DNA from: Bacillus ndiopicus
GTDB taxonomy: Bacteria > Bacillota > Bacilli > Bacillales_A > Planococcaceae
Reading direction: 5' to 3'
Assembly: GCF_000612805.1 (NCBI RefSeq)
Contig: NZ_HG964405.1
Coordinates: forward strand, 9,963-73,962
DNA: 64,000 nt
Positions 30,102 to 60,517 of the stretch are shown here, piece after piece (position 1 is the first letter of the stretch; each line of letters begins with the position of its first letter). The notes beneath the pieces are model-generated. The model saw only the letters and a program-made list of their open reading frames with translations. It was not told where the DNA came from and ran no database searches. The position numbers and the translations under genes were made by a program.

Positions 30102-30251
30102 AGGTGGGGCGTGGCTTCAACTAATTTCTTTTGGCATATGCCGAAAGAAATGGATCTTTAGCTCAAGGCAAACACGATGTTGGTCATGGAGGCGTTGTCA
30201 CAGGATGTGACGTACTTAGCCTCCCTTCCTTTGTTTAGGGAGTCGCCACCT
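30102..30251. repeat. Nested-hairpin element between pckA and metK
   Basis: Bounded by AGGTGGGGCG (30102-30111) and CGCCACCT (30244-30251). Inside is a 14-bp inverted repeat with one mismatch at 30124-30151 (ATTTCTTTTGGCAT / ATGCCGAAAGAAAT) and a two-level hairpin at 30188-30224 (GGAGGC/GCCTCC outer, GTCACA/TGTGAC inner). It is richer in GC than its surroundings and has no credible ORF. It looks like a folded RNA gene or a small non-autonomous mobile element. Confidence 0.6.
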
Positions 30252-30420: not shown

Positions 30421-30597
30421 ACTCTTATCCCGAGCTGGTGGAGGGTCAGGCCCTATGAAACCCGGCAACCTGCATGACTTTTCACATCATGCGCTGGTGC
30501 CAATCTGATGCAAGGAGAATTTTCCTTGAACGATAAGAGTGAAAGGGAACGAAAACACAATCCTTTCTCTCATAATTTATGAGTGAAAGGTTTTTTT
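30421..30597 (+). promoter_or_regulatory. SAM-I (S-box) riboswitch of metK
   Basis: P1 arms ACTCTTATC (30421-30429) and GATAAGAGT (30532-30540) enclose the class signatures GAGGGTCAGGCCCTATGAAA and CCGGCAACC plus GGTGCCAATCTG. A terminator (arms CCTTTC.CTCAT / ATGAG.GAAAGG at 30562-30590, seven T) follows as the expression platform. SAM binding should favour termination, giving feedback on SAM synthetase. Confidence 0.96.
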
Positions 30598-40435: not shown

Positions 40436-40545
40436 AACAAAAAAACTTCTGACTACAAAAATTAAGAAATTTTTGTAGTCAGAAGTTTACGGTTTCTGGT
40501 AGAGACCCTCAATCCATATTACTGAGGCTATACGTTTGCCATCTT
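40436..40545 (-). promoter_or_regulatory. Purine riboswitch (guanine type) controlling pbuE
   Basis: On the minus strand: P1/J1-2 GTATA, P2 arms CCTCA/TGAGG, loop AGTAATATGG, core GGTCTCTACC, P3 arms CAGAA/TTCTG with loop ACCGTAAAC, then GACTAC. The C in GACTAC is the ligand-pairing position, as in guanine riboswitches (U in adenine ones). A perfect 21-bp terminator stem (40443-40463 / 40468-40488) uses the 3' half of the aptamer, so ligand binding should prevent termination: an ON switch. P1 is very short (about 3 bp). Confidence 0.92.
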
Positions 40546-40632
40546 ATCATAGATTGGGGTAGATGACAAATTTTTTTTATATTTAAAGGAAGGGGTGATG
40601 CTTTGTCATCCCATGAAGAAGGCGTATTATAT

Positions 40633-49741: not shown

Positions 49742-49978
49742 ATATACAACGACTATGACAAGGAGTAGTAAATTTCGACACTTTTTAGAGAGCTAGCGGC
49801 TGGTGTGAGCTAGCAAGTGAACAAATTGAACTCGCCTTTGAGTTTGCTTTTAGATACCTAAAAGCCGTGTTTTCGCGTTAAGAAGCTGGAGCTGAGTGCA
49901 GTGTCACTAATTTGGGTGGTACCGCGGGAGTCAAATTTACTCTCGTCCCTTTCTACGGAAGGGGGCGAGTTTTTTATT
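49742..49978 (+). promoter_or_regulatory. Leucine T-box leader of leuS
   Basis: Contains stem I with AGGAGTAGTA near its base, a CTC leucine specifier in GAACTCGCC (49831-49833), the T-box core GGGTGGTACCGCGG (49914-49927) and a terminator with arms CTCG.CCCTT / AAGGG.CGAG at 49942-49969 followed by six or seven T. Uncharged tRNA-Leu should stabilise the antiterminator and allow leuS expression. Confidence 0.96.
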
Positions 49979-55136: not shown

Positions 55137-55331
55137 GAAAAAAGAAGTGCCTATTTTCGTGACCGATTTAAATTTTCACAGTAAAAGGATATTTCCTAAG
55201 GTATAAAAAATGTATAAATGCCCTTCCTGCAATCAAATTGTAACAATTGTTGGAAAGCTTGATATAATAATAATTATAGATTGTCGTTTTGTATTTTTAA
55301 TGCTCTCTTCAAAAAAATCTACCTAATATAA

Positions 55332-55360
55332 TTGACAAACAAAACATGCATTGTTAAACT
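55332..55360 (+). promoter_or_regulatory. Strong promoter of the noncoding leader upstream of speA
   Basis: TTGACA, 17-bp spacer, TAAACT. Predicted transcription start is about 55367. Confidence 0.75.
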
Positions 55361-55366
55361 GAACGA

Positions 55367-55807
55367 GTTGTTAAATTGGAAAGCCAATATTCAAGAAAGA
55401 GTCTTTCCAGCAAATACTTTTTGACCACTTTCGGTAAGCTTCATTTGCTGAGGAAAGTTAAGGCCATACGGACAGCCGGGTCAACTGCCGACTGGCAACG
55501 TTAAGTTGCTTTATTGATTGAGTTAGAAGCTCAAATTTTATAAGTTGGTTACTTTACAACCAGTGTAGAAATGCACATCAACTTGTGAAACGGTCAATAA
55601 GAGTAGTAAAAGTAATTATTTGCTATATAGACTCTAAAAAAACCTATTCGGTTATGTATGAATATTGAAAAGACTTTCCTCTTAGCAGTGCTACGAGTCT
55701 GTTTGCGCCTGCTAAAAATAATGAGGTTTATTACAAAGATTCTTTTCGAATATATGAATACATACAAAAGCAAGTGATGGTGTAATTACCGTTCACTTGC
55801 TTTTTTT
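55367..55807 (+). ncRNA. Orphan structured RNA or long leader before the polyamine operon
   Basis: About 440 nt bounded by a good promoter and a strong terminator, with no ORF that has a ribosome site. Clear helices: CTTTCC-AGCAAAT (55403-55415) with ATTTGCT-GA-GGAAAG (55443-55457); GCAAC/GTTGC at 55495-55509; TTAGCAG (55682-55688) with CTGCTAA (55709-55715); and a long-range AGAGTCT (55398-55404) with AGACTCT (55629-55635), which competes with the first helix. I do not recognise it as any RNA class I know. It could be an independent sRNA or a riboswitch-like leader for speA, which starts 51 bp after the terminator. Confidence 0.55.
55770..55807 (+). terminator. Terminator upstream of speA
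   Basis: Arms GCAAGTGA.GGT / ACC.TCACTTGC with a GTAATT-type loop, then seven T. It ends the 440-nt RNA or attenuates speA. Confidence 0.88.
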
Positions 55808-55857
55808 GCATGGAACGGTGTTGCACGCATGATGAAAATGGGAGAGGTGAAAAATGG

Positions 55858-57318
55858 ATGAGTACGCGATTGTCACAGCATGATGCGCCGATTTACGATG
55901 CGCTACAACAATTTAAGAGCAAGCGCATTGTACCATTCGATGTACCAGGGCATAAACGTGGGCGCGGCAACCCTGAATTAACGGCATTTTTAGGTGAGCA
56001 ATGTGTCAGTGTCGATGTCAATTCGATGAAGCCGCTAGATAATTTATGCCATCCTGTATCAGTAATTAAAGATGCAGAAGAGTTAGCAGCAGAAGCATTT
56101 GGTGCAGCTCATGCCTTTTTCATGGTGAATGGTACAACCTCAGCTGTACAATCAATGATTTTAACGGCATGTAAGCGGGGAGATAAAATTATTTTGCCAC
56201 GCAATGTACATCGTAGTGTTATTAATGCTTTGGTTGTATGTGGAGCAGAACCAGTGTATGTTAATCCAGATATGGACTACAAGCTTGGTATCGCACTAGG
56301 AATGAAAATTTCGCAAGTAGAAAAAGCGATTAAAGAAAATCCAGACGCAAAAGCAATTTTAGTAAACAACCCAACATATTATGGCATTTGTTCAGATTTA
56401 CAAGGGATTGTTAAGCTAGCACATGAAAATGGGATGCTTGTACTTGTTGATGAAGCACATGGTACACATTTTTACTTTGGTGAAAATATGCCGATTACTG
56501 CAATGGCAGCTGGTGCTGATATGGCAGCAGTAAGCATGCATAAATCCGGTGGGAGCTTAACACAAAGTTCATTTTTATTGATGGGACCAGCTATCAATGT
56601 TGGCTATGCGCGTCAAATTGTCAATTTAACGCAAACGACAAGCGGCTCTTATTTATTATTATCAAGTTTAGATTTATCACGTCGTAATTTAGCTTTAAAT
56701 GGCAAGGAGATTTTTGCGCATGTAACGAGCTTATCGCAATATGCACGCGATGAAATTAACAAAATCGGTGACTATTATGCATATTCGAGCGAGCTGATTA
56801 ATGGTGATAGCATATACGATTTTGATGCTACAAAGCTGTCAGTTCATACTTTGGATATCGGTTTAGCAGGTATTGAGGTTTACGATATTTTACGAGACGA
56901 ATACGATATTCAAATCGAATTTGGCGATATTGGAAATATTTTGGCGTATGTTTCTGTAGGGGATCGCGAGCGAGACATTGAGCGACTTGTTAGTGCGCTT
57001 GCTGAAATTCGCCGTCGCTACAAAACAGACAAGGCTGGGCTTATTACACAGGAATATATTGATCCACAAGTAATTACAACACCACAATATGCTTTTTATG
57101 CGGAAAAAGAGTTGCTACCTTTACGTGAAACAATTGGGCGAGTTTGTAGTGAATTTGTTATGTGCTACCCACCAGGCATTCCGATTTTAGCACCAGGTGA
57201 AAAAATTACCCAGGAAATTGTCGAATATATTGAATATGCGAAAGAGAAGGACTGCACAATTATCGGTCCAGAGGATTTAGAAATTGCACGACTCAACGTG
57301 TTAACGGAGGTGCGATAG
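55858..57318 (+). CDS. speA: Arginine decarboxylase-type Orn/Lys/Arg decarboxylase
   Basis: 486 residues, close to B. subtilis SpeA (490). Fold-type I PLP enzyme; the PLP lysine lies in VSMHKSGGSLTQSS near residue 229, FMVNGTTSAVQSM near 90-102 and DEAHGTHFYFGE near 203. SpeA makes agmatine from arginine; lysine specificity is possible for this family. ATG chosen with GGGAGAGG upstream. Followed by speE after a single base, so it is the first gene of the polyamine operon. Possibly controlled by the structured leader. Confidence 0.92.
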   Translation: MSTRLSQHDAPIYDALQQFKSKRIVPFDVPGHKRGRGNPELTAFLGEQCVSVDVNSMKPLDNLCHPVSVIKDAEELAAEAFGAAHAFFMVNGTTSAVQSMILTACKRGDKIILPRNVHRSVINALVVCGAEPVYVNPDMDYKLGIALGMKISQVEKAIKENPDAKAILVNNPTYYGICSDLQGIVKLAHENGMLVLVDEAHGTHFYFGENMPITAMAAGADMAAVSMHKSGGSLTQSSFLLMGPAINVGYARQIVNLTQTTSGSYLLLSSLDLSRRNLALNGKEIFAHVTSLSQYARDEINKIGDYYAYSSELINGDSIYDFDATKLSVHTLDIGLAGIEVYDILRDEYDIQIEFGDIGNILAYVSVGDRERDIERLVSALAEIRRRYKTDKAGLITQEYIDPQVITTPQYAFYAEKELLPLRETIGRVCSEFVMCYPPGIPILAPGEKITQEIVEYIEYAKEKDCTIIGPEDLEIARLNVLTEVR

Positions 57319-57319
57319 G

Positions 57320-58186
57320 ATGGATTTATGGTTTAGCGAAAGCCATACACCGAATGTACGATTGTCGATTAAAGTAGATAAACAACTTTATAGCGCTCAA
57401 AGTGAGTTTCAACGTATTGATGTGTTTGAGTCAGAGGAATTTGGACGCTTTCTCACATTGGATGGTTTTATGATGCTAACGGAGAAGGATGAATTTATTT
57501 ATCACGAGATGATTACACATGTTCCAATGTCAGTTCACCCAAATCCCAAAAAGGTATTAATTATTGGAGCGGGCGATGGTGGTGTTGTACGTGAGCTTGT
57601 GCAATATCAATCAATCGAGCATATTGATTTAGTCGAAATTGATGAGATGGTTATTGAAGCGGCCAAGAAATACTTACCGCAAACAGCAAGCAAGCTTGAT
57701 GACCCTCGCGTTCATATCCATATTGAGGATGGTTTAAAATATATCCGCTTTTGTGAAAATGAATACGATATTATTATCGTTGATTCAACTGATCCATTTG
57801 GACCAGGTGAAGGTTTATTTACAAGAGAATTTTATGGTAGCTGTTATAAAGCGTTAAAAGAAGATGGCATCATGGTTAATCAGCATGAAAGCCCATTTTA
57901 TGATGAGGATGTTGCTGCAATGCAGCGTGCACATCAGCGCATTATTGAATGTTTTCCAATTAGTCGTGTGTATCAAGCGCATATCCCAACATATCCGTCA
58001 GGGCACTGGTTATTTGGCTTTGCATCAAAAAAATATCATCCAGTAAAAGATATGAATGCGAGTGTTTGGAAATCGAATAATATTGCAACAAAATATTATA
58101 ATTCCAACCTGCATAAAGGTTCATTCTATTTACCGAATTACGTACAAAAATTATTAACAGAAGTTGAAAATAAAGGAGACGAATAA
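57320..58186 (+). CDS. speE: Polyamine aminopropyltransferase (spermidine synthase)
   Basis: 288 residues. Transfers the aminopropyl group from decarboxylated SAM to a diamine or related amine. Motif I VLIIGAGDGGVVRELVQY near residues 81-98, substrate-site VDSTDPFGPGEGLF near 153-166 with the catalytic Asp, and YQAHIPTYPSGHWLFGF near 222. RBS GGAGGTG is inside the speA 3' end. Usual partners speD and speB are not in the operon; instead, carboxyspermidine-route enzymes follow. Confidence 0.95.
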   Translation: MDLWFSESHTPNVRLSIKVDKQLYSAQSEFQRIDVFESEEFGRFLTLDGFMMLTEKDEFIYHEMITHVPMSVHPNPKKVLIIGAGDGGVVRELVQYQSIEHIDLVEIDEMVIEAAKKYLPQTASKLDDPRVHIHIEDGLKYIRFCENEYDIIIVDSTDPFGPGEGLFTREFYGSCYKALKEDGIMVNQHESPFYDEDVAAMQRAHQRIIECFPISRVYQAHIPTYPSGHWLFGFASKKYHPVKDMNASVWKSNNIATKYYNSNLHKGSFYLPNYVQKLLTEVENKGDE

Positions 58187-58187
58187 A

Positions 58188-59387
58188 ATGGCAAAAGCAT
58201 TAATTATTGGAGCAGGCGGCGTTGCGTCTGTAGCAGTACATAAATGTGTACAAAACAGCGAGGTATTTGAGGAAATTTGTATCGCAAGTCGTACAAAATC
58301 AAAATGTGATGATTTAAAAGCAAAATTAGATGGCAAAGGTACAAAAATTACGACTGCACAAGTTGATGCAGACAATGTAGAGGAGCTAATCGCTTTAATT
58401 AACGAAGTGAAGCCTGATATCGTTATGAACCTTGCATTACCATATCAAGATTTAACAATCATGGATGCATGCTTAGCAACAAAAACACATTATATGGATA
58501 CTGCAAACTATGAGCCAGAAGATACAGCGAAATTCGAATACAAATGGCAATGGGAATATCATGAGCGCTTTAAAGAAGCTGGCATTACAGCACTTTTAGG
58601 CTCAGGTTTTGACCCAGGCGTAACAGGCGTATTTACAGCACATGCCTTAAAGCATCATTTCGATGAAATCGAGTACATCGACATTTTAGACTGCAATGGT
58701 GGTGACCATGGCTACCCATTCGCAACAAACTTCAATCCAGAAATCAATATTCGTGAAGTATCAGCGAATGGTCGTTATTGGAAAGAAGGCGAGTGGATTG
58801 AAACTCAACCTATGGAAATTAAACGCGTCTACAACTTTGAAGAAGTTGGCGAAAAAGATATGTACTTGCTATACCATGAAGAACTTGAGTCATTAGCGAA
58901 AAACGTACCTGGCTTAAAGCAAATTCGCTTCTTCATGACATTCGGTCAAAGCTATTTAACACATTTAAAATGCTTAGAAAATGTAGGAATGACTTCAATC
59001 GAACCAATTATGTTTGAAGGCAAGGAAATTATTCCATTACAATTCTTAAAAGCGGTATTACCAGATCCAGCATCACTTGGACCACGTACAAAAGGTAAAA
59101 CAAATATCGGCTGTATTTTCCGTGGTAAAAAAGATGGACAAGATAAAACTTATTACGTATACAATATTTGTGACCATGAAGCATGTTACGCAGAGGTTGG
59201 TTCACAAGCGGTTTCTTACACAACAGGTGTACCTGCAATGATTGGTGCGATGTTAGTTGTCAATGGTGAGTGGAACAAACCAGGCGTTTACAATGTAGAA
59301 GAATTCAATCCAGATCCATACATGGATGCATTAAATAAATGGGGCTTACCTTGGAAAGAAAGCTTCAATCCGGAGTTAGTTGACTAA
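58188..59387 (+). CDS. Carboxyspermidine/carboxynorspermidine synthase (LYS1-like dehydrogenase)
   Basis: 399 residues; ATG after AAAGGAGACG, the upstream in-frame ATG lying in speE. Saccharopine-dehydrogenase family with Rossmann motif LIIGAGGVASVAVHKC near residues 4-19 and GSGFDPGVTGVFTAHALK near 140-157. CASDH condenses aspartate semialdehyde with putrescine, a diamine or agmatine and reduces the imine with NADPH. Adjacency to CASDC supports this role over lysine metabolism. Exact amine acceptor unknown. Confidence 0.88.
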   Translation: MAKALIIGAGGVASVAVHKCVQNSEVFEEICIASRTKSKCDDLKAKLDGKGTKITTAQVDADNVEELIALINEVKPDIVMNLALPYQDLTIMDACLATKTHYMDTANYEPEDTAKFEYKWQWEYHERFKEAGITALLGSGFDPGVTGVFTAHALKHHFDEIEYIDILDCNGGDHGYPFATNFNPEINIREVSANGRYWKEGEWIETQPMEIKRVYNFEEVGEKDMYLLYHEELESLAKNVPGLKQIRFFMTFGQSYLTHLKCLENVGMTSIEPIMFEGKEIIPLQFLKAVLPDPASLGPRTKGKTNIGCIFRGKKDGQDKTYYVYNICDHEACYAEVGSQAVSYTTGVPAMIGAMLVVNGEWNKPGVYNVEEFNPDPYMDALNKWGLPWKESFNPELVD

Positions 59388-60517
59388 TGATGAAATTTGA
59401 ACAAGTACCAACACCAAGCTACGTTGTAGATGAAGTGCTGATTGAAAATAATTTGAAAATTTTACATGGCGTTATGGAACGTACAGGCTGTAAAATTATT
59501 TTAGCTCAAAAAGCTTTTTCGATGTTTTCATTATATCCATTAATCGGAAAATATTTAAGCGGTACAGCAGCAAGTGGTTTATATGAAGCTAGACTTGGTC
59601 ATGAAGAAATGGGCAAGGAAAATCATGTATTTTCACCTGCTTATCGTGAGGACGAAATCGATGAAATTATTGAACTTTGCGATCATGTTGTTTTTAATTC
59701 CTTTACGCAAGTAGAGAAATACGGGGCAAAGGTACGTGCGGCTGGTAAAAGTGTAGGTTTGCGTATTAACCCCGAGTGCTCAACGCAAGAGGGGCAAGAA
59801 ATTTATGACCCTTGTGCACGTGGTTGTCGTTTCGGTGTAACATTAAAGCATTTCAAACCAGAGCTTTTGGATCAAATTGATGGTATTCATTTCCACACGT
59901 TATGCGAGCAAGATTCCGATGCGTTGGCCGTGACACTTGAAGCAGTGGAAGAAAAATTTGGTCAATGGTTGCCACAAATGAAATGGATTAATTTCGGTGG
60001 AGGACATCATATTACACGCGAAGGCTATAATATTGAGCTTCTTGAATCTTGTATTACACGCATGCAGGAGAAGTATGGGCTTCAAGTATATTTAGAGCCT
60101 GGCGAAGCGATTGCCTACAGAGCAGGTTACTTAGTAACAACAGTTTTAGAAACGCTAGAAAACGGTATGGAGCTAGCTATTTTAGATACATCAGCATCTT
60201 GTCATATGCCAGATGTACTTGAAATGCCGTATCGACCACCGCTACAAAATTCGGGTACAGTAGGCGAAAAGCCTTATGCTTATCGATTAGGGGGACCAAC
60301 TTGCTTAGCAGGTGACGTTATTGGTGATTATTCATTCGATCAGCCACTAGCAGTAGGAGATCGTCTTGTATTCGAAGATATGGCAATTTACTCAATGGTA
60401 AAAAACAATACATTTAATGGAATGGCTTTACCTGCGATTGTTATTCAAGATGCAAATGGTGAATGCCGTATTCAAAAGCAATTTAGCTACGAAGACTTTA
60501 AAGGTCGACTTTCTTAA
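59387..60517 (+). CDS. nspC: Carboxynorspermidine/carboxyspermidine decarboxylase
   Basis: 376 residues. Alanine-racemase-fold PLP enzyme: PLP lysine in IILAQKAFSMFS near residue 41, glycine-rich FGGGHHITREGYN near 203, and LGGPTCLAGDVIG near 306 with the active-site Cys. NspC-type signature CARGCRFGV is present. Decarboxylates carboxyspermidine-like intermediates to the triamine. Its start overlaps the previous stop (TAATG), so the last two enzymes are made together. A terminator closes the operon. Confidence 0.92.
   Translation: MMKFEQVPTPSYVVDEVLIENNLKILHGVMERTGCKIILAQKAFSMFSLYPLIGKYLSGTAASGLYEARLGHEEMGKENHVFSPAYREDEIDEIIELCDHVVFNSFTQVEKYGAKVRAAGKSVGLRINPECSTQEGQEIYDPCARGCRFGVTLKHFKPELLDQIDGIHFHTLCEQDSDALAVTLEAVEEKFGQWLPQMKWINFGGGHHITREGYNIELLESCITRMQEKYGLQVYLEPGEAIAYRAGYLVTTVLETLENGMELAILDTSASCHMPDVLEMPYRPPLQNSGTVGEKPYAYRLGGPTCLAGDVIGDYSFDQPLAVGDRLVFEDMAIYSMVKNNTFNGMALPAIVIQDANGECRIQKQFSYEDFKGRLS

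Follow-up and report, generated by a model that had tools for sequence, protein, structure and literature searches.

Within the window, by which we mean the whole 64,000-nucleotide stretch of Bacillus ndiopicus DNA analysed here, a polyamine operon of four genes on the forward strand is preceded by a long untranslated leader. The first gene encodes a speA-type Orn/Lys/Arg decarboxylase (55858–57318; PF01276, E 1.1e-68). It is followed by the spermidine synthase gene speE (57320–58186; TIGR00417, over cut-off), a gene for a carboxynorspermidine dehydrogenase-like protein (CANSDH) of the saccharopine dehydrogenase family (58188–59387; PF16653 and PF03435, with an NF043000 match at E 2.6e-124 that falls below the cut-off of that model) and the carboxynorspermidine decarboxylase gene nspC (59387–60517; TIGR01047, over cut-off). 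Upstream of speA, the first-pass annotation had described a promoter, some 440 nt of structured RNA with no credible reading frame, and a strong terminator, and all of these were borne out. The promoter, TTGACA-17-TAAACT with an extended TG, lies at 55332–55360 on the forward strand and matches 10 of 12 positions. Promoter-like sites of at least 10/12 are enriched at the same place in homologues, occurring in 62% of the loci compared with 5.7% in shuffled sequence. A second promoter-like site, GTAACA-17-TATAAT, also with an extended TG, is seen at 55240–55268, about 90 nt 5' of the leader promoter. The longest sense ORFs of the leader encode no more than 42 aa (from a TTG) and 39 aa (from an ATG), and inspection of relatives revealed no recognisable counterpart of either. 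The leader, 446 nt long, has a folding energy of −127 kcal/mol, as opposed to −95.1 ± 5.6 kcal/mol for its shuffles (0 of 100 as low; z = −5.65), as befits a strongly structured RNA. The intrinsic terminator occupies 55766–55807 on the same strand (−20.4 kcal/mol), with its hairpin at 55766–55804 and a U-tract at 55801–55807, and ends 51 nt 5' of the speA ATG at 55858. A terminator of this kind is found downstream in 151 of 154 homologous loci, at a median of −20 kcal/mol.

The leader had also been called unassigned, and an Rfam scan and an analysis of covariation had been proposed as checks. The first of these showed the claim to be wrong. Positions 55422–55491 (forward strand) match the curated family RF02440, SpF59_sRNA or ldcC RNA, with 71.7 bits against a gathering score of 37.2 (cmscan; E 6e-11 and 5.3e-13 in two scans); this is the sole match within the leader, and the B. 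ndiopicus genome holds one copy. Helices P3 and P4 lie within this match, as does P5, the near-invariant segment AAGGCCATACGGACAGCC. The position of the leader also agrees with membership of the family, upstream of an ldcC/speA-type decarboxylase or other polyamine gene, the gene in the window being a PF01276 protein. The sequence and structure of this segment are thus shared with RF02440, far over the gathering score. However, the RF02440 model, which Rfam classes as an sRNA gene, is 54 positions long, whereas the conserved RNA found in an alignment of 89 representatives is far larger, at about 255–260 nt, and is accompanied by a terminator, an antiterminator and polyamine genes. The leader RNA therefore belongs to a known but functionally orphan family of RNAs, whose architecture and regulon we infer here. 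No functional study of RF02440 or of ldcC RNA was found in the literature searched. The Breaker/Weinberg motif survey (NAR 2017) is said to list an ldcC motif.

The pneumococcal RNA behind RF02440 is known as F59, SN20, srn235 or Spd_sr49 and lies between SP0915 and SP0916, co-directional with SP0916 (PMC3395615). It was found in all 385 strains surveyed and maps to 869478–869804 in TIGR4 (PMC12323649). In D39V, positions 826260–826587 are annotated as srf-13 (SPV_2247), an 'ncRNA of unknown function' of about 328 nt (PMC6212727), which is probably F59 given the near-equal length and matching coordinates. A discrete transcript of about 328 nt at the place of the homologue in Streptococcus pneumoniae is what would be expected of a terminated leader. 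Two divergent loci from another genus, which would appear to be Streptococcus, carry the same core with a speA gene downstream (L145 and L147).

The conserved core, a putative aptamer, extends over 55378–55635 on the forward strand, beginning with the P1a hairpin and ending with AGACUCU, the strand that forms the 3' side of P1. Covariation among the 89 aligned sequences is clear: both partners vary in 39 of the 66 pairs of the proposed structure, 87.9% of cells are able to pair compared with 34.6–46.4% once the partners are slid, and the covariation score is 0.200 rather than 0.044–0.081. P1a (55378–55383/55403–55408) carries in its loop the 5' strand of the closing helix P1 (55398–55402/55631–55635), creating a pseudoknot, and P2 (55409–55416/55617–55624) follows. 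These three helices are less well aligned than the others; P1 and P2 clearly exceed shuffled sequence and P1a does so slightly. P4 and P7 have the strongest support, with both-side changes in six of six pairs of the P7 hairpin (55494–55510). Covariation also supports P8 (55511–55517/55594–55600) and the helices that it encloses, namely P9 (55520–55532), P10 (55540–55546/55580–55586), P11 (55547–55561) and P12 (55563–55576). P3 is nearly invariant apart from its strongly covarying closing pair. The RNAalifold consensus had paired GACC with a distal GGUC, but the pairing with the near GGUC given by Rfam is preferred because the closing pair covaries (UA 44, GC 29, CG 9). P5 is invariant among the loci found with an 18-mer since that very segment was used to select them; some divergent loci have GCC...GGC in place of GGC...GCC, which would keep the pairing. 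Near-invariant segments of the core include AAGGCCAUACGGACAGCC and AAUAAGAGUAGUAAAAGU. Between core and terminator lies a variable linker (55640–55766, forward strand). The long bulged helix described in the first-pass annotation is indeed present there, as a stem leading from the core to the terminator, and it is kept in Bacilli relatives only.

An 18-mer of the invariant segment of the family matches at least 118 genome-contig stretches, mostly from Bacillota, with one record labelled Synergistaceae; viral contigs gave no exact match. One locus (L095) proved to be a chance occurrence in apparent coding sequence and was excluded. As selection by an 18-mer yields a biased set, a second sample was drawn from whole genomes with RF02440 alone. 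The element is unevenly distributed, occurring in 11 of 299 genomes from the phylum, in 24 of 300 from the class and in 40 of 391 from another class. The link to polyamines drawn in the first-pass annotation is strongly upheld by gene context. Enough downstream sequence was available for 128 homologous loci, and in all 128 the first gene recognised by tblastn with polyamine protein queries was a polyamine gene pointing in the same direction; such a search is blind to an earlier non-polyamine gene, but at this spacing one would hardly fit (speA/ldcC 41, CANSDH 40, speD 31, potA 16). This gene starts a median of 335 nt and at most 650 nt past the 18-mer, and no opposite-strand polyamine gene was detected by tblastn within 1.5 kb. 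The RF02440-derived sample behaves in the same way, with a co-directional polyamine gene first in 40 of 40 loci (potA 13, speD 13, speA 12, CANSDH 2) and one more locus cut by the end of its contig. The first genes thus span at least four unrelated families, the PotA transporter included. In Pfam and NCBIfam searches with the proteins, PotA passed a spermidine/putrescine model and representatives of PotB and PotD matched such models below cut-off. Minus-strand ORFs that emerged from the first clustering of neighbours were set aside as apparent antisense frames over polyamine genes, tblastn having returned no minus-strand polyamine match. One divergent copy (L146) has a terminator and, in the roughly 400 nt up to the end of the locus, no polyamine gene.

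How the core might communicate with the terminator is suggested by the 3' sides of P12 and P10. This strand (55573–55586, forward strand) has two alternative partners, the core or the 5' arm of the terminator (55770–55782), which usually carries a CAAGUG-like motif complementary to it; the duplex with the arm is worth −13.1 kcal/mol in the window. Over 123 non-redundant pairs of strand and arm, native partners bind at a mean of −12.67 kcal/mol, permuted partners at −10.67 (sd 0.21; 0 of 1000 as low as native) and shuffled arms at −6.89, a significance that is overstated because the permutation ignores relatedness. Separate loci repeat the result (−13.38 versus −10.97 kcal/mol, 0 of 500), the first locus set agrees, and a control segment of the core shows no such effect. 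The better argument, at the level of sequence, for a putative antiterminator is the set of co-changes between lineages: UCAACUUG occurs with CAAGUGUUG, CAGACUUG with CAAGCUG, and UCGACUUG with CAAGCGAUG. The first-pass annotation was therefore right that a competing long-range pairing exists, but the best-supported one is this pairing rather than that of the P2 strand with the terminator. The latter, formed by the 3' strand of P2/P1 and possibly the 7-bp pair meant at the time, reaches −10.9 kcal/mol in the window; its native mean of −7.66, against −7.29 for permuted partners, lies inside their range, and this pairing was not adopted. Energetically, the local P10–P12 domain (−13.0 kcal/mol) and the antiterminator duplex (−13.1) are near equal in the window. 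In nearest-neighbour folding of the leader from the window, the antiterminator receives almost no weight (0.01 expected pairs) even before the 3' arm of the terminator is made, and although the model leaves out co-transcriptional and tertiary effects, this result lends the antiterminator no support.

With a conserved fold, an exclusive polyamine context, a terminator and a covarying antiterminator, the leader is very probably a cis-acting transcription attenuator and probably a riboswitch, for which a polyamine is the likely ligand. It has the features by which riboswitches are generally recognised: a covarying structured domain, a cis link to metabolically linked yet unrelated genes, and an expression platform with mutually exclusive helices, although global folding does not predict the antiterminator. 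The first-pass idea of a riboswitch or attenuator for a polyamine-related metabolite is thereby strongly supported as to the type of regulator by context, covariation, terminators and antiterminator, its 'unassigned' status aside. We hold with good confidence that the RNA is a transcription-terminating OFF switch for polyamine homeostasis that responds to spermidine or a close polyamine; direct binding, the identity of the ligand and the direction of the response are what we infer from the features above. The core (55378–55635) would act as the sensor. When folded, it would keep the 3' strand of P12/P10 inside and leave the 5' arm of the terminator free, so that the terminator could form and transcription would halt before speA. 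In an unstabilised core, 55573–55586 would instead pair with 55770–55782 as an antiterminator, allowing read-through into speA-speE-CANSDH-nspC. Since P10/P12 and the antiterminator are mutually exclusive, a ligand that stabilises the core would make this an OFF switch. The signal would then be the end product common to all regulated genes, giving feedback control, and spermidine is the first candidate because these genes all serve to make or carry polyamines of the spermidine type.

The same RNA might sense another compound of the pathway. Putrescine, agmatine, cadaverine, decarboxylated SAM, MTA and carboxyspermidine all belong to subsets of the same pathways. It is an unlikely reading, as the product or cargo that potA, speD, speA and CANSDH appear to have in common is of the spermidine type, and decarboxylated SAM lies outside the CANSDH/nspC route. 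The fold could also be recognised by a protein or by another RNA. An attenuator governed by an RNA-binding protein would explain the terminator and antiterminator equally well; what makes it decidedly improbable is a core of about 255 nt with many near-invariant positions, larger than the usual protein-binding leaders, and the fact that the recurrent neighbours of the homologous loci included no regulator gene. The first-pass annotation had offered an independent RNA gene as its alternative, and F59/srn235/srf-13 is catalogued as a trans-acting small RNA. The element has a promoter and terminator of its own, the pneumococcal transcript is discrete, at about 328 nt (PMC12323649, PMC6212727), and a table of pneumococcal sRNAs lists F59 as having a lung phenotype (PMC4387999). 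Yet an RNA acting in trans would have no need to sit invariably just 5' of polyamine genes from at least four families and to point the same way as they do, and wherever downstream sequence sufficed the RNA was never apart from them (128 of 128 and 40 of 40 loci); nor would its terminator arm need to covary with the core. The pneumococcal RNA adjoins SP0916 in the same direction, so the phenotype could be polar, and an independent RNA gene is thus very improbable. Ribosome-mediated attenuation through a leader peptide is barely conceivable: the 39-aa ORF (55658–55777) does overlap the 5' arm of the terminator, but it lies in the variable linker, lacks a visible ribosome-binding site and had no counterpart recognised on inspection of relatives, and the conserved part of the leader is structural RNA.

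Polyamines stick to any RNA, and convincing polyamine riboswitches are therefore hard to find. One confirmed class, a rare one, was met in the literature searched, a variant of SAM-I located upstream of ldcC, speE and speB that acts as a transcription-terminating OFF switch (PMC10853860). The leader described here shares with it the kinds of genes and, as proposed, the terminating OFF mode. Unlike the variant with its SAM-I aptamer, however, it has no SAM-class match (none of the SAM clan in 55320–55880 up to E = 1), and its core, with a conserved sequence of its own, exceeds twice the length of the SAM model of 108 positions. The leader is a candidate for a second polyamine riboswitch class unrelated to the SAM-I variant. 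The odc1 motif of alphaproteobacteria, likewise a structured leader, precedes the polyamine gene for ornithine decarboxylase; it consists of one hairpin with a pseudoknot and a uORF (PMC8632094) and shows no sign of a relation to the RNA studied here. The other regulatory leaders of the window match their own Rfam models elsewhere, and none overlaps the polyamine leader. A SAM riboswitch lies at 30422–30539, a purine riboswitch at 40456–40555 on the reverse strand, and a Bacillaceae-1 RNA match at 30169–30235, also reverse. T-box RF00230 was absent from the leader up to E = 1, its sole match in the window being at 49746–49953, directly 5' of a leucyl-tRNA synthetase ORF.

Taken further, we incline, somewhat more than not, to the view that a large (~255-nt) polyamine riboswitch class, scattered over Bacillota and one record labelled Synergistaceae and structurally unrelated to the rare SAM-I variant, controls both synthesis and uptake by antitermination and explains F59. 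If true, this would give a function to the pneumococcal transcript. Because the RNA is widespread, large and highly conserved, is tied to polyamine genes alone and offers a concrete switching strand, the question can be put to a direct test. Two copies of the element occur in each of two genomes (L052 with L076; L037 with L100), those of Paenibacillus oralis and a Clostridiales MAG, which is what control of several polyamine operons would lead one to expect. In six loci preceding potA (L162, L169, L170, L173, L175 and L176), CAUACGG is replaced by CAGACGG or CACACGG, and GAGUAGUAAAAGU mostly by a GAGUACGCGUA-like sequence, both segments being otherwise near-invariant; these loci possibly form a sub-class.
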